Positions 3,903 through 37,706 of a DNA stretch of 56,863 nucleotides are shown here, piece after piece (the stretch's first letter is position 1; each line of letters begins with the position of its first letter). Source of the stretch: a virus; the IMG/VR virus record IMGVR_UViG_3300046810_000555, positions 1 to 56,863 of that record; one strand, 5' to 3'. The notes beneath the pieces are model-generated. The model saw only the letters and a program-made list of their open reading frames with translations. It searched no databases and was not told where the DNA came from. The position numbers and the translations under genes were made by a program.

Positions 3903-3914
3903 GCGCAAAAAAAA

Positions 3915-3936
3915 GCCCGCTGGTGCGGGCATTTTT
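3915..3936 (+). terminator. Rho-independent terminator after the ORF6N gene
   Basis: GCCCGC, loop TGGT, GCGGGC, then ATTTTT. An A-tract on the 5' side means it could also act leftward on the 3' end of the opposing lipoprotein gene, which ends at 3945. Confidence 0.8.
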
Positions 3937-3944
3937 AATGCTTA

Positions 3945-4739
3945 CTACCGAGAAAGAGATGCTTGGATAAATGGCCGGAACGCGGAATACGCCAGCGTCC
4001 GACGCATACTACACAATAGTGCCGAATATTTTTCTTCTTTGCAACTTGGAGTGATCGAAATGATTTCACTCGTCCCCCGGCTTGGCATTTTCACTATTTT
4101 CATGCCAAGCTTTCCTGTTTCGGTGGGGTTGTAGGTTTCCACGATCGTATCTGTCGCTACCTGAATCTTTTGATCGGAGTTGGTGCTCACGAAGATCTGG
4201 GCAAGTGCGAATGCTTTTGCGCACGAGATCTTATCCTCGCAAGTGTAAGACGACTGGCGCTGCGCCTCCAACTCTTTAGCAAATTGTTCAGTCAACTTCC
4301 TCTCATCAGCTTCAACCTGAGCTGCGATATCGGCTGCTCTTTTCGCCTTCTTAGCATCCTCGTCTTTTTCACGTGCGTTCACAGCGGCCAGCCATTCGGC
4401 TTGTTCTTTCGCTTGACGTTCATCGCGGATCGCTCGCGCGGTTTTCGCAGCTGAGTCACTAAAAATGCCGCCATTTGGAATGTCAGCTATCTTTTCCTGG
4501 CGAAGAGTGTAGCGAATAGATCCGTTCTTAGTCCCGTCATACGCTTGGGCGTTACCGCGCCGCCATTCAATGTGATCATCGTCTTTGTCCGTGGGAGGAA
4601 TGCCAATAATCGCAATTGCTTCGGCGACCGTCATGCCATTTTTTACATCATTGGCATTGCCACGAGCGAGCTTGTAGTTCGTCGCCGCACAACCGGCCAG
4701 CAACGCAGCAGCGAACAAGACAGCTATTAGTTTTTTCAT
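3945..4739 (-). CDS. Predicted lipoprotein with SmpA/BamE-like N-terminal segment
   Basis: A 264-aa protein whose N-terminus is a lipoprotein signal: basic MKK, hydrophobic LIAVLFAAALLAG, and a lipobox ending in Cys17. After it, NDVKNGMTVAEAIAIIGIPP resembles the repeat seen in SmpA/OmlA (BamE)-like domains. Residues about 90-170 are a long charged Ala/Lys/Glu helix, probably a coiled coil; the C-terminus has a pair of Cys (TCEDKISC) that may form a disulfide. It is convergent with the ORF6N gene. A surface lipoprotein in the immunity region could be expressed from the prophage; phage lipoproteins sometimes exclude superinfecting phage, but nothing here proves that. Confidence 0.7.
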   Translation of the reverse strand: MKKLIAVLFAAALLAGCAATNYKLARGNANDVKNGMTVAEAIAIIGIPPTDKDDDHIEWRRGNAQAYDGTKNGSIRYTLRQEKIADIPNGGIFSDSAAKTARAIRDERQAKEQAEWLAAVNAREKDEDAKKAKRAADIAAQVEADERKLTEQFAKELEAQRQSSYTCEDKISCAKAFALAQIFVSTNSDQKIQVATDTIVETYNPTETGKLGMKIVKMPSRGTSEIISITPSCKEEKYSALLCSMRRTLAYSAFRPFIQASLSR

Positions 4740-5238: not shown

Positions 5239-5389
5239 GAAGAACTTGCAGCGAGTGATAGATGCTTATAAAGCAATGGATCAACGGGCGCGCAACGAGT
5301 ATGTGATATTGATGGAACAGACCGCGCGTAAGTATCCGATGAAGGTCGCCGTTAAACTGCGATTAGTCCCCGCCGACAAGGGTCGGTAG
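5237..5389 (+). CDS. Small hypothetical protein (50 aa)
   Basis: A 50-aa basic protein beginning MKNLQRVIDAYKAMDQRARNEY, with an amphipathic helix followed by RKYPMKVAVKLRLVPADKGR. It is not recognised. The start codon overlaps the second copy of a direct repeat and has no clear Shine-Dalgarno, so translation may be weak or regulated. Its last 27 nt overlap the 3' end of the convergent repressor gene. AT-rich upstream sequence and the repeats suggest its own promoter. It could be a small regulator, but this is not shown. Confidence 0.5.
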   Translation: MKNLQRVIDAYKAMDQRARNEYVILMEQTARKYPMKVAVKLRLVPADKGR

Positions 5390-5881
5390 CTTCACCACTT
5401 TTTTAAGCAATGCAAGGCGATCCATTAATTCACTGCGCTCACGCTCATCCGAGGTCCGGAATAGCGTCAGAAGCCGGATCTCTTCAGGAGTAGCGAAGAT
5501 GTATTCGACACGCGGAACGTTCTTGCTGTGCTCTGCCTGTGCTGCGAGCGGAGAGTCCGCACTGGTGTGAACAAGCAAATTCGTCTCGAGCCCGGCGCGT
5601 GTTTTCCCGCGCGGCGTCGTGTCTTCGCCAAATTGAATGACGCGCGAATCGTCAGTGCGCTCAGCGAGAGCCAGTTCCTCATCGCCGTTAATTAGCCAAG
5701 AGACGGTGACGCCTAGAGTACTTGCGACCTTCTCAACTCGACTTCGGTTCGGGGCTGTACCACCTTCCTTTTCCCAAAGCTGCACGGTCTGCCAAGACAC
5801 GCCGACGCGATCCGCCAACGCTTTGTGACTTGTCATTCCGAGCGCAAGTCTGCGCTCCTTGATTCTGCTGTGAATACTCAT
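5363..5881 (-). CDS. CI-like phage repressor (XRE-type HTH)
   Basis: A 172-aa protein. Residues 3-62 form an XRE helix-turn-helix: RIKERRLALGMTSHKALADR, then VSWQTVQLWEKEGGTAPNRS and VEKVASTLGVTVSWLINGDE. Unlike lambda CI there is no S24 peptidase domain with a Ser/Lys pair; the C-terminal half is a short charged region ending in a helix (EERLLTLFRTSDERERSELMDRL-like). Induction therefore may not use RecA-stimulated self-cleavage; an antirepressor such as the Rha/KilAC or ORF6N protein could relieve repression instead. The start at 5879-5881 faces cro across the operator region; an upstream TAAAAT could be the -10 of PRM. Confidence 0.82.
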   Translation of the reverse strand: MSIHSRIKERRLALGMTSHKALADRVGVSWQTVQLWEKEGGTAPNRSRVEKVASTLGVTVSWLINGDEELALAERTDDSRVIQFGEDTTPRGKTRAGLETNLLVHTSADSPLAAQAEHSKNVPRVEYIFATPEEIRLLTLFRTSDERERSELMDRLALLKKVVKLPTLVGGD

Positions 5882-5896
5882 ATTGAAACTATGCCC

Positions 5897-5911
5897 ACAA
5901 GATTTTATGGT
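5897..5911. promoter_or_regulatory. Possible weak operator OR3
   Basis: ACAAGATTTTATGGT shares the ACAAG half-site with OL2 but has a divergent second arm and spacer. It overlaps the presumed -10 of the repressor promoter, where OR3 sits in lambda. Centre-to-centre distance to OR2 is 21 bp. Confidence 0.35.
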
Positions 5912-5917
5912 GGCTAC

Positions 5918-5932
5918 ACAGATTTTTCTTGT
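5918..5932. promoter_or_regulatory. Operator OR2
   Basis: ACAGATTTTTCTTGT. The right half is the complement of the ACAAG half-site in OL2 and the T5 centre is kept. It overlaps the -35 of PR, exactly as OL2 overlaps the -35 of PL. Confidence 0.65.
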
Positions 5933-5956
5933 GTATGCTAGTTTTTCTAGTACAAT
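5929..5956 (+). promoter_or_regulatory. PR, rightward early promoter
   Basis: -35 TTGTGT (5929-5934) and -10 TACAAT (5951-5956) with a 16-nt spacer filled by OR1. The predicted transcript start falls at about 5963, next to the cro ATG at 5964, so the cro mRNA may have almost no leader. The layout mirrors PL. Confidence 0.7.
5937..5951. promoter_or_regulatory. Operator OR1
   Basis: GCTAGTTTTTCTAGT: the reverse complement of OL1 apart from one end base. It lies between the -35 and -10 of PR; the centre is 19 bp from OR2. Confidence 0.75.
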
Positions 5957-5963
5957 CAGCCGC

Positions 5964-6236
5964 ATGGATACCAACCGTACAAATGAAGCACTCTCGCGCG
6001 CTATTGCAAAGTGGCCATCGCTCAAGGCTTTCGCTACTGAACTTGAAGTGCCGTACCAGACCGTGCAGCAGTGGTTAAAGAACGGCGTTCCCGCTGTCTA
6101 CTGCCCTCGCATCGAAAAAATGACCGAAGGGGACTCTCTCTGCGAAGACTTGAACCCTGCGATCGACTGGACATATTTGCGGGGAACGTCTGCCGCAGTT
6201 CTGATTCAAAACAAAGGTGAGGACCGAGCCCAATGA
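5964..6236 (+). CDS. Cro/YdaS-like HTH regulator
   Basis: A 90-aa protein, first gene of the rightward operon and divergent from the repressor. MDTNRTNEALSRAIAKWPSL is followed by KAFATELEVPYQTVQQWLKNGVPAVYCPRIEKMTEG, the layout of YdaS/Cro-type HTH proteins that read an operator through a Q-x-W-containing recognition helix. The C-terminal tail is short and acidic. No ribosome-binding site precedes the ATG at 5964 and the predicted PR start is one or two bases upstream, so it may be translated from a leaderless mRNA. It overlaps the next gene by 4 nt (ATGA). By position it should compete with the repressor at OR/OL. Confidence 0.8.
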   Translation: MDTNRTNEALSRAIAKWPSLKAFATELEVPYQTVQQWLKNGVPAVYCPRIEKMTEGDSLCEDLNPAIDWTYLRGTSAAVLIQNKGEDRAQ

Positions 6237-6634
6237 AAGCCGCACTCAACCGCATCGCTGCGCTGCTCGGATACGTCCCCGCGCCGGCTAAATACGCGCC
6301 GTGCGTCATCAAGATGGAACTCGACTTCGAAATCGACAGCTCACCGGTGGACGCCGCGATAACCAAGCTTGACCGGCTCAGCGATGCCGCGCGCCGGGCT
6401 GAATCCGCCATCGCTGACGTGCTGATGGCACAGGCCGGCGAGTTTATCGACTCGCTACCGATATCCGACGAAACCCAAGCTCTGATCCTTGCCGAACTGC
6501 GCAAGCAGAACACGCTGCTCGAAGTGCTGGCGAAGCAGGGTGACTGCGCCGCCTGGCACAAGCACTGCGCTGCGCCGCATGACAGTGCCACCGAGCCCGC
6601 AACCGGCGCAGCCGCATCCGGCTTGCCTGGCTGA
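6233..6634 (+). CDS. Hypothetical early protein (133 aa)
   Basis: An unrecognised 133-aa protein translationally coupled to the cro-like gene (ATGA overlap). Residues 25-60 (VIKMELDFEIDSSPVDAAITKL) resemble the beginning of a small alpha/beta fold, followed by two long helices rich in Ala, Arg and Glu and an Ala/Gly/Pro-rich disordered tail from about residue 110. No catalytic motif or membrane segment is visible. The second-gene position in the PR operon is that of cII in lambda, but it has no HTH pattern, so it is not called cII. Confidence 0.65.
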   Translation: MKAALNRIAALLGYVPAPAKYAPCVIKMELDFEIDSSPVDAAITKLDRLSDAARRAESAIADVLMAQAGEFIDSLPISDETQALILAELRKQNTLLEVLAKQGDCAAWHKHCAAPHDSATEPATGAAASGLPG

Positions 6635-27634: not shown

Positions 27635-27666
27635 CTTTCGGCGCTATGAATTTGAGCAAGGAAGCC

Positions 27667-29106
27667 ATGTCCAACAAGGTCAACGACAAATCCGCAGCAG
27701 TCGAGGCCATGGAGGCCGATTGGGACAAGGTCGACGCGCTGATCGGCGGCACCAAGACCATGCGCGCGGCTGGCGAGCGCTGGCTGCCCAAGTTTCCAGG
27801 CGAAAGCCAGAAATCTTGGGACTACCGCGTGAAGACCTCGACGCTGTACAACGCGCTGGGTCGCACGGTTGAGAACATGGCCGCCAAGCCATTCGCTGAG
27901 CAAATCACTTACGCCGACATCGATAAGGTGGTCGAAGAGTGGCTCCCGAACATCGACCTGTGCGGCAACAACCTCACGGTGTTTGCCCACAACGTGTTCA
28001 CGGAGGCGCTGGCCAAAGGCTTGACCCACATCCTGGTGGACCTGCCACCGACCATCGACAAGGACGGTAATCGCAAGTACATCACCCAGGCCGACGAGAA
28101 AGCCGCCGGCCTGCGCCCATACTTGGTTCACGTGAAGCCTCGGCAGGTGCTGGGCTGGCGCAGCGCCAAGGGGGCGAACGGCGTCGAGATACTGGAAATG
28201 CTGCGGCTCATGGAGTGCGTTGAAGAGCCTGACGGTGATTTCGGCACGGCCAGTGTGCAGCAGATTCGTGTACTTACCCCGGGAAAGTGGGCGACCTACC
28301 GTAAGGGCGAGGGCACCCAGAAAGATGAGTGGATCGAGCACGACAGCGGCGTAACGTCATTCGATTGCGTGCCCCTCGTCACCTTCTACACGAAGCGCAC
28401 CGGCTTCATGACGGCCGTGCCGCCGCTGCTGGACATGGCCGACAAGAACGTTGAGCACTGGCAGTCGTCAAGCGATCAGCGCAGCATCCTGCATACTGCG
28501 CGCGTGCCGATCTTCGCGATCAGCGGCGTCGGCGACGACGATACGATCGAGATCGGCGCAAAAACGTTTCTTCGCCTGCCGACCGGCGCTGAGGCCAAAT
28601 ACGTTGAGCACACCGGCGCTGCGATCGAGGCTGGCCGCAACGACCTGAAGGATCTTGAAGAGCAGATGCGCGCCATGGGCGCCGAACTGCTGGTGGCCAG
28701 TGAAGTTGCAAGCACCGCTACCCAAAATAACATCGAGAATGGCGATGCGAAGTGCCAGCTCCAGCGCATGACACAGGGCCTTGAAGACACGCTCGACAAT
28801 GCCCTGGACCTGATGCACAAGCCGATGCGCATGAAGTACAAAGGCACGTTGGACGTGTTCGATGATTTCGCGTCCGATATGCTCATCGCCACGGCCGGGC
28901 CATTCGTGCTTGCGCTGATCCAAATGGTCAACAGCGGCCTGATCTCGAAGGAAGATGCCTTCAACGAAATGCAGCGCTACGGGATCCTGAATCCGGACCT
29001 GGTCTGGAAAGACGTGCAGAGCCGCATCAGCCTGGAGCCGCCTATGTTCGATGTCCCAATGCCCGGCGTGAAGGTGCCGAAGCCTGACCCAGTGGACGCC
29101 GAGTAA
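27667..29106 (+). CDS. Portal protein (DUF4055 type)
   Basis: A 479-aa portal subunit, forming the dodecameric DNA entry ring. It starts MSNKVNDKSAAVEAMEADWD and contains ERWLPKFPGESQKSWDYRVK, then LGRTVENMAAKPFAEQITYA, the DUF4055 signature, and TPGKWATYRKGEGTQKDEW. The stretch LSRMAL-like seen in this family is present around MTAVPPLLDMADKNVEHWQ. An AAGGA site 6 nt before 27667 favours that start over the ATG seven codons upstream. It overlaps the MuF-like gene by TAATG. Confidence 0.88.
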   Translation: MSNKVNDKSAAVEAMEADWDKVDALIGGTKTMRAAGERWLPKFPGESQKSWDYRVKTSTLYNALGRTVENMAAKPFAEQITYADIDKVVEEWLPNIDLCGNNLTVFAHNVFTEALAKGLTHILVDLPPTIDKDGNRKYITQADEKAAGLRPYLVHVKPRQVLGWRSAKGANGVEILEMLRLMECVEEPDGDFGTASVQQIRVLTPGKWATYRKGEGTQKDEWIEHDSGVTSFDCVPLVTFYTKRTGFMTAVPPLLDMADKNVEHWQSSSDQRSILHTARVPIFAISGVGDDDTIEIGAKTFLRLPTGAEAKYVEHTGAAIEAGRNDLKDLEEQMRAMGAELLVASEVASTATQNNIENGDAKCQLQRMTQGLEDTLDNALDLMHKPMRMKYKGTLDVFDDFASDMLIATAGPFVLALIQMVNSGLISKEDAFNEMQRYGILNPDLVWKDVQSRISLEPPMFDVPMPGVKVPKPDPVDAE

Positions 29107-30278
29107 TGAACGCTCTCGAAGAATGGCTGCTTGAGGCGCTGCTGGCAAGCGGCGTCAAGATGCTCCGCGTCGAGGCCGAGATCAAGGCGCGGGTGCTGGC
29201 CCTGCTGGTGCTGATGCAAAAGGATTTGGTCTCGACGCTGGCCAACGCCGGCGAGTTGTCGGCAATGAGCCGCGCCGCGCGCAACGCCGTGCTGCGCGAA
29301 TCGAACGACCTGATCGCGACGTATTACGGTCGTGCCCAGCTCGCCGTCGATCTCTTCGGCGTGGCCGAGGTCGAATCGATGGCGGTCCGCAATGCGCTGG
29401 TCAGCGTGATCGAGCGCGCAGCGCCTGGCGAGATCAGCGCCGCCGTGCGCATGGGCGTCGGCATTCCGACGGAAGGCTATCTACGCAAGCTGGCCGGCGA
29501 CGTGCTGATCCAGGGCTCACCCGCCAAGAACTGGTGGTTGCGCCAGCAGCAGGACACGCAGTTCAAGTTGGCGAACCAGATCCGCATCGGCGCCGCGCAA
29601 GGCGAGACGAATGCCCAGATCATCAAGCGCATCGTCGGCCAGGAGGCTGCGGTGATAGCGGCGCCAGCTACCAATCCAGCGGTGCCTGCGCTATTTCGGC
29701 CACCTGGCCCTGTCGCACCGGTTATTCAGCCTGGCATCCCGGGCATCATGCCGCTGGCGAAGAAGAACGCCGCAGCCATCGTGCAGACCAGCCTGGCTAC
29801 CGTCGCCGCTGCCGCGCGCCGCGCCACGTTCGAGCTGAACAAGGACATCAGCGACGGATTCATGCAGGTCAGTACGCTGGACAGCCACACCAGCTACGTG
29901 TGCATCTCGTACAGCGGCGCCTCCTGGGATTGGGAGTACAACCCCATCGACGGCAACGCGCTGCCGTGGGATGGCGGCGTGCCGCGCCACTGGAACTGCC
30001 GCAGCGCCGAGATTGCGATCATGAAGAGCCTGCGCGACATGGGCATCGACATGGACGACCCGGAACCAACCCAGCGCGCCTCGGCGGCCGGACCGATCAG
30101 CGCCAAAACGACGTTTGACGAGTTGCTCAAGATGATGGGAGCGGAGTTTCAAAACGAGACTCTGGGCAAGGGCAGGGCGGAGCTGTTCCGCGCTGGCAAA
30201 TTGAACTCGCGCGACCTTGTCGATATGTCCGGCCGGCCCCTCAAGCTGGAAACGCTCAAGGCCGCCTATGCGCAGTGA
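29106..30278 (+). CDS. MuF/SPP1 gp7-like minor head protein
   Basis: A 390-aa protein of the minor head family that accompanies portals and may be packaged in the capsid. The N-terminal half is helical (EEWLLEALLASGVKMLRVEA). Residues 225-310 match the MuF core: AKKNAAAIVQTSLATVAAAA, VSTLDSHTSYVCISYSGASW and LPWDGGVPRHWNCRSAEIAI, with Cys and the RHxxCRS motif. The C-terminal 80 residues are a separate helical part (FDELLKMMGAEFQNETLGKG), which in MuF proteins is where effector domains attach, but no toxin motif is evident here. Confidence 0.85.
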   Translation: MNALEEWLLEALLASGVKMLRVEAEIKARVLALLVLMQKDLVSTLANAGELSAMSRAARNAVLRESNDLIATYYGRAQLAVDLFGVAEVESMAVRNALVSVIERAAPGEISAAVRMGVGIPTEGYLRKLAGDVLIQGSPAKNWWLRQQQDTQFKLANQIRIGAAQGETNAQIIKRIVGQEAAVIAAPATNPAVPALFRPPGPVAPVIQPGIPGIMPLAKKNAAAIVQTSLATVAAAARRATFELNKDISDGFMQVSTLDSHTSYVCISYSGASWDWEYNPIDGNALPWDGGVPRHWNCRSAEIAIMKSLRDMGIDMDDPEPTQRASAAGPISAKTTFDELLKMMGAEFQNETLGKGRAELFRAGKLNSRDLVDMSGRPLKLETLKAAYAQ

Positions 30279-31469: not shown

Positions 31470-31871
31470 ATGCACACAGTCTTCTTCATCATCTGCTGGC
31501 TGTGGGCCGGCTGGGCCGCGTTCAACCTGCTGATCGTGCTGGTCGCCACGGTGCTGCCAGTGCACCAAGCGCACTTCGACGGCTTCCGCGCGCGGCTGCC
31601 CACTTGGTTGTCGTCGCTGCTCACCGCCGACGAAATCGCCGCGGTGATTTCGCACGAGCACGGTCACCGGCGTCACCTGCACGTCTGGATCAACCTGGCG
31701 CTGCGGTGCCTGTTCCTGAACCCGGGCGCGCGCCGCCGGCGCCAGCACGAGATCGAGGCCGACGACTACGCGGTCGCACACGGGCACGGCCGTCACTTGG
31801 CCAGCGCGTTGCGCAAGCTATCCAGGCACCCTGATGACGTATCCCGGGCCGAGCGCCTGGAGCGAATGTAG
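31470..31871 (+). CDS. Membrane M48-like metalloprotease (short)
   Basis: A 133-aa protein. Residues 3-28 are a membrane helix (FFIICWLWAGWAAFNLLIVL). The zinc motif is SHEHGHRRHLH with H62, E63 and H66; the third ligand is E94 in HEIEADDYA (ExxAD), the hallmark of M48 proteases. M48 enzymes such as HtpX are usually 250-300 aa, so this is a minimal version. It lies between two terminators, just before the scaffold gene. It could act in host membranes as an accessory gene, or process a head protein; the position alone does not decide. Confidence 0.75.
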   Translation: MHTVFFIICWLWAGWAAFNLLIVLVATVLPVHQAHFDGFRARLPTWLSSLLTADEIAAVISHEHGHRRHLHVWINLALRCLFLNPGARRRRQHEIEADDYAVAHGHGRHLASALRKLSRHPDDVSRAERLERM

Positions 31872-31987: not shown

Positions 31988-32803
31988 ATGCCATTCAAAT
32001 TTAATGCCGACGGCACCATCGCCATGGACGCCGAAAAGAAGATGCCGATCTTCATTCACCCGAACGGTACCGAAGCGCCATTCGACGCTGACACGACCAT
32101 CGCCAACATCGGCAAGTTGAACGGTGAAGCCAAGGGCCACCGTGAGCGCGCCGAGGCAGCAGAAGCAAAACTGAAATCCTTCGACGGCATCGAAGACGGC
32201 GTGGCAGCGCTGGCCGCCCTGAACACCGTGAAGAGCCTGAGCTCCGGTGAACTGAAGACGGCCGCCCAGGTCAAGGAAATCCAGGATGCCGCTGCCAAGA
32301 CCGCCCAGGAGCAGGTTGCAGCGCAGGCCAAAGCCAGCGCCCAGCAGCTGCAGGAGCTTACTGCGACGCTGGAGAAGCGCACCAACGAATTGAATAACCA
32401 CATGATCGGCGGCGGCTTCACCGGCTCGAAGCTGTTCAATAAAGATGCCAAGCATCCAAGCCAGTTGGCGATCCCGCCTGAAATGGCCCGCGCCTACTTC
32501 GGCAACAACTTCAAGGTAGAAGACGGCAAGATGGTCCCCTACGACGCTGCCGGCAACAAGATCTTCTCGCCGACCCGCCCGGGTGAAATCGCTGACTTCG
32601 ATGAAGGCCTCGCGCAGCTCGTCGCCGCCTGCCCGTTCAAGGATAAAATTCTTGCGGGTTCCGGCGCATCCGGTGGCGGCGCCCAAGGCAGCGGCGGCAA
32701 GACGCCGGACGGCAAGAAGCAGATCACCCGTGCAGCGTACGACGCCATGGACCCCATGGCCCGCGCCGGCGCCATGAAAGAAGGCGCCGCGATCGTCGAT
32801 TGA
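31988..32803 (+). CDS. Capsid scaffolding protein (DUF6651 type)
   Basis: A 271-aa protein directly upstream of the coat gene. The N-terminus MPFKFNADGTIAMDAEKKMP with IFIHPNGTEAPFDADTTIAN is followed by a long coiled coil, residues 35-140 (KGHRERAEAAEAKLKSF, AQEQVAAQAKASAQQLQELT). The C-terminal part (PSQLAIPPEMARAYFGNNFK and YDAMDPMARAGAMKEGAAIV) is the DUF6651 pattern found next to P22-like coat proteins. Acidic, coiled-coil and located before the coat gene: all fit a scaffold. Confidence 0.82.
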   Translation: MPFKFNADGTIAMDAEKKMPIFIHPNGTEAPFDADTTIANIGKLNGEAKGHRERAEAAEAKLKSFDGIEDGVAALAALNTVKSLSSGELKTAAQVKEIQDAAAKTAQEQVAAQAKASAQQLQELTATLEKRTNELNNHMIGGGFTGSKLFNKDAKHPSQLAIPPEMARAYFGNNFKVEDGKMVPYDAAGNKIFSPTRPGEIADFDEGLAQLVAACPFKDKILAGSGASGGGAQGSGGKTPDGKKQITRAAYDAMDPMARAGAMKEGAAIVD

Positions 32804-32847: not shown

Positions 32848-32961
32848 CGTTTTCGCAGTACAGCAGTGCTTTGCCGGCGCCTGGATGGGCAAGTCGGTGC
32901 TTTTGGGCTGGATGGCCTTTCTGTTCAAAACCTCAAACCACCAATTAAAGGCAATTCCACC

Positions 32962-34296
32962 ATGAAGAAAATGCTGATTTCCCTCGTAGCCCTGGCTGCG
33001 ATGGCCATGTCCTCGACCGCCCAGGCGGTCACCACCTGCGCTGACAAAGCGACCTTTTGCGTCAAGATCGTCGGCGAGCTGGTCCAGGCCCACGTCTGGA
33101 ACTACGCCGCAAAGACTGGCCTGGTGCTGGGCCCGAATAACCTTACCGGCCTGATCACCACCCTGTACAACGCGATGGACGTCGTGTCGCGCGAGCAGGT
33201 CGGCATGATCCCGGCCGTGTCGGCCGACATGACGTTTGCCCGTGCTGCCGTTGGTCAGGTGGTGACGTCGCCCGTTGCGCCCGCCGCGACCGCGACCGAC
33301 ATCACGCCCGCCGTGACGCCACCGAATGACGGCGATCAGAACATCGGCAACAAGTCGGTGACCCTGACCAAGGCACGCCGCGTGCCGATTCGCTGGAATG
33401 GCGAAGAAAAGCTGGCACTGGATAACAGCGGCAACAGCTATAACATCATCCTGCGCGACCAGTTCGCCCAGGCCATGCGTACGCTGTGCAACGAAGTCGA
33501 ATCGGATCTGACCGCGCTGCACGTCAAGGCCTCGCGCGCCTACGGCACCCCGGGCACCGCGCCCTTCGGCATTGCCAACGACCTCGGCGACACTGCCGGT
33601 GCGCTGCGCATCCTGGAAGACAACGGCGCCCAAGGCCTCGACTTCCAGATGGTTCTGGGTTCGGCTGCGATGCAGAACATGCGCGGCAAACAATCGGGCC
33701 TGTTCAACGTCGAGAAAGCCGGCCGTGAAGATATGCTGCGCGACGGCATCACCGACCGCCTGCAGGGCCTGGCATTGCGCCAGTCCGCGCAGATCAAGCG
33801 CCCGGCCAAGGGTACTGCCGCTGGCGCCACCACCAACGCAAACGGCTATGCCTTCGGCGCCACGGTCATCACCCTGGCCGCCGCCGGTACCGGTTCGTTC
33901 GTTGCGGGCGACGTGATCACCTTTGTCGGCGATCCCGAAAACAAATATGTTGTCTCGTCCGGCGACGCCAGCTCGGCCGATGGCGGCACGATCACCATCG
34001 CTGCGCCTGGTCTGCTGCAAGCGATCCCGGCCGCCGCAACTGCGATCACTGTCGCCAACGTCGGGTTCCGCAACATGTTCTTCGCGCGCTCGGCCATCGT
34101 GCTGGCGACCCGCGTGCCAGCTTTGCCAGCGCAGGGCGACTCGGCCGCCGACCGCACCATCATCACCGACCCGGTCTCGGGCCTGTCCTTCGAGGTCAGC
34201 ATGTACATGCAGTACCGCCAGGTGCAATACGAGATCGCGCTGGTCTGGGGTGTAGGTGCCGCAAAAGACGAGCACATCGGCATCCTGCTGGGCTAA
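32962..34296 (+). CDS. Major capsid protein, P22-like coat, with signal-peptide-like N-terminus
   Basis: A 444-aa coat protein. From about residue 55, LTGLITTLYNAMDVVSREQV then GMIPAVSADMTFARAAVGQV and ARRVPIRWNGEEKLAL match P22-type coats. An insertion-domain-like beta region (GTGSFVAGDVITFVGDPENK) and the C-terminal FARSAIVLATRVPALPAQGD and IALVWGVG segments complete it. Homologues usually begin near LTGL. Here residues 1-22, MKKMLISLVALAAMAMSSTAQA, form what looks like a Sec signal peptide with an AQA site, then about 32 more residues with two Cys. AAAGG precedes the ATG and no good internal start exists. Confidence 0.88.
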   Translation: MKKMLISLVALAAMAMSSTAQAVTTCADKATFCVKIVGELVQAHVWNYAAKTGLVLGPNNLTGLITTLYNAMDVVSREQVGMIPAVSADMTFARAAVGQVVTSPVAPAATATDITPAVTPPNDGDQNIGNKSVTLTKARRVPIRWNGEEKLALDNSGNSYNIILRDQFAQAMRTLCNEVESDLTALHVKASRAYGTPGTAPFGIANDLGDTAGALRILEDNGAQGLDFQMVLGSAAMQNMRGKQSGLFNVEKAGREDMLRDGITDRLQGLALRQSAQIKRPAKGTAAGATTNANGYAFGATVITLAAAGTGSFVAGDVITFVGDPENKYVVSSGDASSADGGTITIAAPGLLQAIPAAATAITVANVGFRNMFFARSAIVLATRVPALPAQGDSAADRTIITDPVSGLSFEVSMYMQYRQVQYEIALVWGVGAAKDEHIGILLG

Positions 34297-37094: not shown

Positions 37095-37706
37095 TTAAGT
37101 GCGCTTGCGGCGGCGTGACATCGCTCCTACCAGCCCCAGACCTGCCATCATCATGGCATAGGTTTCCGGCTCTGGGACCGCAGTCGTAGGCGTGAGCGTT
37201 AAATCATCAACAACAAATATCGGGCCATCCCCGTCCGGGCTCCCAGCGTGAGTTCCTCCCGATGGAGTGAATATGACGCTAGAAATGCCTGTCCAGTTAA
37301 ACACTATATGGGTCGGCCCTGTTGCATTGAGTAAAAAATCTGCCTCGTAATTGTTTGTACCCGTGGCAGTTACATGGAGGTTAAGGCCATTACGAAGGGC
37401 GCCAGTGAAGTAACCGCCAATCAGGTCAAAGGTATGGTCCGCAGATATCGAAGTGGGATTTCCGGTTCCGCTAAACCCGGCGTGCGTCCCGCTCGTTACG
37501 CCATATTCGTACCCGGTGCCGATGTATCTCACATCCGCCGTGGGATCAACGATGTACATGTTGTCCCACTGATAGCCCCCGTAGCTCTCGAGGAGTTGGC
37601 CGTCCACGAACGGCTCGAAATCGAGCGTCTCAGCCAGTACACCGTGCGAGGCAATTTCACTTAGAGCGAAGAAAAGCGCAAGCGTGATCTTTTTTGCGTG
37701 CTTCAT
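37095..37706 (-). CDS. Reversed PEP-CTERM secreted protein
   Basis: A 203-aa protein. An N-terminal signal peptide (MKHAKKITLALFFALSEIAS, cleavage near LAE) leads a beta-sandwich-like part (LDFEPFVDGQLLESYGGYQW, FDLIGGYFTGALRNGLNLHV). The C-terminus is a full PEP-CTERM sorting tag: VPEPETYAMMMAGLGLVGAM followed by SRRRKRT, i.e. PEP box, hydrophobic helix and basic tail. Host exosortase would cut at PEP and anchor or export it. It lies reversed among virion genes, with AT-rich flanks and GGGGG before the ATG. It is a moron that should be active only in hosts with exosortase. Confidence 0.85.
   Translation of the reverse strand: MKHAKKITLALFFALSEIASHGVLAETLDFEPFVDGQLLESYGGYQWDNMYIVDPTADVRYIGTGYEYGVTSGTHAGFSGTGNPTSISADHTFDLIGGYFTGALRNGLNLHVTATGTNNYEADFLLNATGPTHIVFNWTGISSVIFTPSGGTHAGSPDGDGPIFVVDDLTLTPTTAVPEPETYAMMMAGLGLVGAMSRRRKRT

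Follow-up and report, generated by a model that had tools for sequence, protein, structure and literature searches.

Coat propeptides and head-maturation proteases are known in phages, yet to our knowledge no phage head system has a membrane M48 metallopeptidase or a coat with a signal-like leader, and neither was found for phage heads in the open-access literature. In HK97, the scaffold is a domain of the coat (PMC10275583). The locus described here, on a viral contig of 56,863 nucleotides (the window; IMG/VR record IMGVR_UViG_3300046810_000555), resembles the HK97 delta domain arrangement in carrying an extra N-terminal domain on a coat of the HK97 fold, with proposed removal by a protease of the head cluster. 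Unlike HK97, the window has a separate scaffold gene, the leader is short and signal-like, and a membrane M48 stands in place of the HK97 protease family. By analogy, the leader system may work like a coat propeptide with its head-maturation protease, with nothing placing the M48 in the HK97 protease class. The core of the window coat is ordinary by sequence and fold and like that of P22 gp5 (PF11651) and the phrog_283 coats, whereas P22 and most phrog_283 coats lack both a leader and a linked M48 gene. The M48 protein shares HExxH, ExxAD, and a membrane helix with HtpX and Ste24/ZMPSTE24, from which it differs in its length of just 133 residues, its single membrane helix, and its place in a phage head operon. 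Finally, the leader has the n-, h-, and c-regions with AxA of Sec signal peptides processed by signal peptidase I, but its AxA is followed by a long linker, and GxxLG forms a further conserved site at the start of a cargo that is a cytoplasmically assembled coat.

Table 1 Head genes of the window and features of the coat gene and its leader
Feature	Position	Strand	Evidence
Portal protein, phrog_145	27646..29106	+	
Head morphogenesis protein, Mu F-like, phrog_241	29106..30278	+	
Small membrane M48 metallopeptidase of 133 aa with a single membrane helix and the motifs HEHGH and EIEADD; candidate leader protease	31470..31871	+	PF01435, alignments, AlphaFold
Head scaffolding protein, phrog_784/206, DUF6651, without leader here	31988..32803	+	
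Ribosome-binding site AAAGG, 10 nt before ATG 32962	32947..32951	+	
Gene of the major coat protein, P22-like / phrog_283, 444 aa including the N-terminal leader	32962..34296	+	profile matches, AlphaFold model
Leader, residues 1-57, missing in plain relatives	32962..33132	+	comparison with plain coats
Signal-peptide-like part, residues 1-22 (MKK, hydrophobic core, AQA)	32962..33027	+	
Linker, variable, residues 23-52, low-confidence helix prediction (pLDDT about 51-73)	33028..33117	+	model
Junction motif GLVLG, residues 53-57, proposed cleavage after G57	33118..33132	+	
In-frame internal start candidate GTG near junction, rejected	33124..33126	+	no ribosome-binding site, codon not conserved
Coat core, start equivalent to plain-coat start after Met	33133..34293	+	

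The window contains one coat gene (Table 1), and a search across it for a second, plain coat gene returned none. By profile and fold, its product is a member of the P22-like family (phrog_283 / PF11651). The best structural match of its AlphaFold model is the P22 procapsid coat 8i1v (E 3e-17), the top Foldseek matches (8i1v, Sf6, and CUS-3) indicate an HK97-like fold nearest the P22 coat, and Pfam P22_CoatProtein (PF11651) covers residues 165-442 (E 6e-10, above cut-off). The frame from ATG 32962 begins with MKKMLISLVALAAMAMSSTAQA, a segment that meets rule-based Sec criteria (basic n-region, hydrophobic h-region, AxA-type c-region), and continues through a linker of about 30-35 residues into the coat. 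An earlier note on this DNA had described a signal-peptide-like N-terminal extension on a P22-like coat; this extension is real, in that its frame is conserved and the PHROG 283 'major head protein' profile (E 4e-96) covers only residues 58-444. Plain relatives start M-A/S-N-T-L-T-G-L and the window coat reads G-P-N-N-L-T-G-L at the same place, so that the extension comprises exactly residues 1-57, with Gly57 in the place of Met. The junction at 57/58 corrects the coat start that the note had put at about residue 55, and the interval between AQA and LTGL, which begins at residue 61, is 38 residues instead of about 32.

The window is a prophage of the Duganella/Janthinobacterium type, and close relatives of its coat come from prophages in these two genera. 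All of them keep the extension in frame (70-98% identity), so it is not a chance feature; the AAAGG 10 nt upstream of the coat ATG is likewise kept. Extension and core have pN/pS values of about 0.58 and 0.19, respectively, within the window clade, which argues that the extension is translated and constrained, though loosely, with the weakest constraint of the leader in the c-region around AQA (0.86). The two cysteines previously remarked on in the extension are present (C26 and C33), but they are not conserved in the relatives. AlphaFold predicts helices at residues 2-16 and 23-52, at low confidence and with no firm packing.

To see how far such extensions recur, coats were compared over 212 distinct members of the phrog_283 family, drawn from six scans, four over viral contigs and one each over genomes and phage records. 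Extensions of 22-69 residues are present in 34 of these coats. A rule-based signal-peptide test (basic n-region, hydrophobic h-region, AxA-type c-region) was passed by 32 of the 34 extended coats, by none of the 178 plain coats, and by 6 of the 692 remaining ORFs at these loci. Across lineages, the extensions have almost no common sequence but a common design, consisting of a basic start, a hydrophobic core, a mostly AxA-type end, and a linker. On a tree of the coat cores, the leader trait needs nine changes, at least eight of them forced by well supported branches; it is thus a module that lineages gain and lose. In P106B and RHph_X2_24, both isolated phages with complete genomes, the only coat gene encodes a short leader (MRKNLILPSLAAPFILSGAYA and MRKNILLGGSVLAAPFIGHLSAYA, respectively, each followed by SANTLT), so leader-bearing coats appear compatible with virion production; the argument that export of a coat would be fatal does not exclude a leader. 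Neither mass spectrometry nor an experimental N-terminus of a leader-bearing coat was found in the open-access literature.

The most uniform part of the leader in the window clade is its end. Positions -11 to -1 are strongly conserved, G-5, L-2, and G-1 are invariant in all 18 coats, and an aromatic residue occupies -10 in 18/18. The conserved end motif is G-[LMIV]-x-L-G, in its longer form N[YF]xx[KR]xG[LMIV]xLG, and the residue at -1 aligns with Met1 of plain coats. Over three coat sets, an end of the form G-hydrophobic-x-[LA]-small occurs in 31 of 38 leaders (shuffles: mean 0.3, maximum 3). The same end is found on phrog_212 coats (for example, LFNYLASSGLVLG before GLTL and LTNYMARQGMIAG before ALTL) and on PF11651 coats nearer P22 itself (LTAHMRRNGLILG before INQF), with G at -5 in 13/13 leaders of these two sets; the front halves of these leaders often fall short of a clean Sec signal. 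Leaders of P106B and RHph_X2_24 deviate, ending AYAS instead of GLVLG, and those of L032/L087 and L115/L151 are also off-motif. The linkers did not score consistently above shuffles in a test for amphipathic helices. Because a cut at the motif would give the N-terminus of plain coats after Met loss, we read it as a putative processing site over a random fusion point.

The M48 gene lies two genes upstream of the coat gene, directly before the scaffold. Judged from sequence, that is, from its HExxH, a downstream ExxAD, and its profile score (PF01435, 26.7 bits, cut-off 20.3), the window enzyme is a member of peptidase family M48. H62, E63, H66, E94, A97, and D98 are invariant in alignments, and the AlphaFold model (pLDDT 95.4) has its nearest fold in Ste24/ZMPSTE24 (Z 9.7), with no match in a viral-protein structure library at E 0.001. 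In scans of the genes for the portal, the Mu F-like protein, M48, and the scaffold, and of genes downstream, no dedicated head-maturation protease family came up; the Mu F-like protein gave a weak part-match to phrog_595 and nothing more. No window-type M48 was found in isolated phage genomes. The 'peptidase M48' of AH14a, a phage with virion mass spectrometry (PMC4936722), was set aside as irrelevant here because HExxH is missing from the gene and a leader from the coat. That gene (p56; L592, 629-952) is misannotated and has the look of a small, holin-like membrane protein.

The occurrence of M48 genes follows that of leaders. In the pooled sets obtained with coat queries, an M48 gene adjoins ten coats, all of them leader-bearing (10/10), and none of 180 plain coats. 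By set, it accompanies 5/20 leader-bearing versus 0/117 plain coats for phrog_283 (Fisher 4e-5), 4/9 versus 0/27 for phrog_212 (Fisher 0.002; L434 and L437 are classed here as leader-bearing and are both labeled plain in the phrog_212 pairing tree), and 1/3 versus 0/36 for PF11651 (Fisher 0.08). The latter two tests are partly tied to the M48 search, since L432 (contig of L404), L435 (L398), and L512 (L396) were already known through M48, L433 and L461 being new. None of 49 whole records with plain coats contains an M48. Scans that started from M48 gave the converse result, with leaders on 9 of 10 newly found neighboring coats (L343, L345, L358, L361, L408, L353, L355, L359, and L398). The phrog_247 coat of L352 probably bears one as well, since its profile match begins at residue 28. 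L348 is the one clear counterexample, in which a window-type M48 (3905-4312) adjoins a plain coat (5310-6476).

Most leader phages of the coat-query sets have no M48 anywhere in their records, among them L007, L011-L016, L018, L024, P106B, and RHph_X2_24, and M48 as an obligatory partner of the leader was rejected on these grounds. As for another protease in the M48 slot, the candidate ORFs of three such phages (L011, L007, and L018) had no Pfam match; the one in L011 (3109-3897) contains a trypsin-like-looking AAHV stretch. Tree-aware pairing left only two informative pairs in each family; they point the expected way but are too few for significance, and part of the linkage could thus be explained by shared ancestry or host bias.

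The reading that we tentatively favor, at close to an even chance, is that the 57 residues form a removable, membrane-affine leader that is cut at the motif by the phage M48 or, where this is absent, by a host protease. The basic, hydrophobic, signal-like front half would give the nascent coat an affinity for the inner membrane, and the N[YF]xx[KR]xG[LMIV]xLG end would be a processing site exactly at the normal coat start. In the window phage, the cut would most likely be made by the membrane M48 encoded two genes upstream; for leader phages without this gene a host protease is assumed. The cut coat would have the same start as plain relatives after Met loss, and since it would begin where plain coats begin, an ordinary P22-like shell could form. 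The leader would delay assembly or localize it at the membrane until cleavage releases the coat. We infer membrane binding, cleavage, the substrate of the enzyme, and the benefit (local concentration or delayed assembly); that the M48 acts on the leader is suggested by genomic linkage. Four origins or roles had been offered for the extension in the earlier note, namely a capsid-internal arm, a membrane anchor, a regulator removed by a protease, and a fusion with a host gene. The anchor and the protease-removed segment fit best and can be combined, because the M48 gene neighbors those for scaffold and coat, and the motif that closes the leader is shared and resembles a cleavage site. A one-off host-gene fusion is disfavored, because the leader recurs on the coat tree and in other capsid families with the same end motif.

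More broadly, capsids might be assembled tethered to the membrane through leaders on the coat and, in some phages, on the scaffold or other head proteins, with a dedicated phage M48 releasing the particles by a GxxLG-type cut as part of a modular maturation system shared by several capsid families; we regard this extension as possible but rather doubtful. The scaffolds of P106B and RHph_X2_24 begin about 15-20 residues early, with hydrophobic leaders. Compared with phrog_784/206/648, short basic-hydrophobic N-terminal leaders are also seen on scaffolds of L325 (1855-2661), L083 (1359-2156), L408 (5895-6707), and L405 (10532-11365). A group of phrog_1357 phages (L415, L416, L418, L420, L421, L423, L428, and L430) has a distant M48 after the portal; here a basic-hydrophobic leader ending in LFPG or a close variant is common to coat and scaffold and, in several of the phages, is also found on a third protein of the head cluster. 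The leaders on the P106B and RHph_X2_24 scaffolds and on the phrog_1357 head proteins support a role in head assembly. If the removable leader is true, the system would define a further class of head-maturation protease, explain many coats with a signal-peptide-looking N-terminus, and open membrane-associated capsid assembly to testing in small phages with a single coat; the proposal predicts exact N-termini of mature coats.

Alternatively, the extension could be retained as an arm within the capsid, in effect a mini-scaffold fused to the coat in the manner of an uncleaved HK97 delta domain, lying inside the procapsid next to the scaffold and using its hydrophobic part for assembly contacts instead of membranes. 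The predicted helices, the strongly conserved -11 to -1 region, and the leaders on scaffolds of some phages are consistent with such an arm. We nevertheless consider it unlikely, as the model has low confidence and no firm packing, pN/pS of the extension is about three times that of the core, the whole leader is repeatedly gained or lost and is linked to a protease gene, and its composition, including AxA, is that of a signal peptide.

The same composition raises the prospect of a genuine Sec signal peptide that host signal peptidase I cleaves after AQA or a similar site. The coat would then be pulled to the membrane and trimmed, either remaining in the cytoplasm or slipping back into it. Cleavage of this kind would leave 30-45 residues after AxA in most phrog_283 leaders, the c-region at AQA is the least constrained, and many phrog_212 and PF11651 leaders lack a clean site yet have the GxxLG-type end. 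These points make it quite unlikely, even though AxA-type ends are preceded by Pro in several lineages and the P106B and RHph_X2_24 leaders end AYA/S right at the coat start.

It is improbable that the leader is a neutral or regulatory passenger, acting through a nascent-chain or chaperone effect, and the M48 an unrelated accessory gene of the same lineages. Weak constraint, the many leader phages without M48, and the small number of independent pairs would agree with a passenger; the recurrence of the end motif on other capsid families and the 9 of 10 leader-bearing coats returned by the M48-first search would not. Finally, an annotation artefact, or a virion coat made from an unannotated start near LTGL, is highly improbable and was rejected, since the sole in-frame candidate near the junction, GTG 33124, lacks a ribosome-binding site, as the earlier note had stated for this region, and its codon varies among relatives (GTG, GTA, GCA, ATC, GCG, ATG) while the ATG and AAGG site are conserved.

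Two further features lie near the coat gene. A conserved two-hairpin element (CCUGGAUGGG ... GGUGCUUUUGGGCUGGAUGGCC; window 32872-32917) is located 45-90 nt before the coat ATG and shows apparent paired changes. It is present in 36 of 207 coat upstream regions, of leader-bearing and plain coats alike (shuffled controls, 0), and has no Rfam match; a coat-gene leader RNA or a translational operator is possible. Within the head-tail cluster, window positions 37095-37706 on the minus strand encode a host-type secreted protein with a signal peptide and a PEP-CTERM tail (PF07589), a moron gene.
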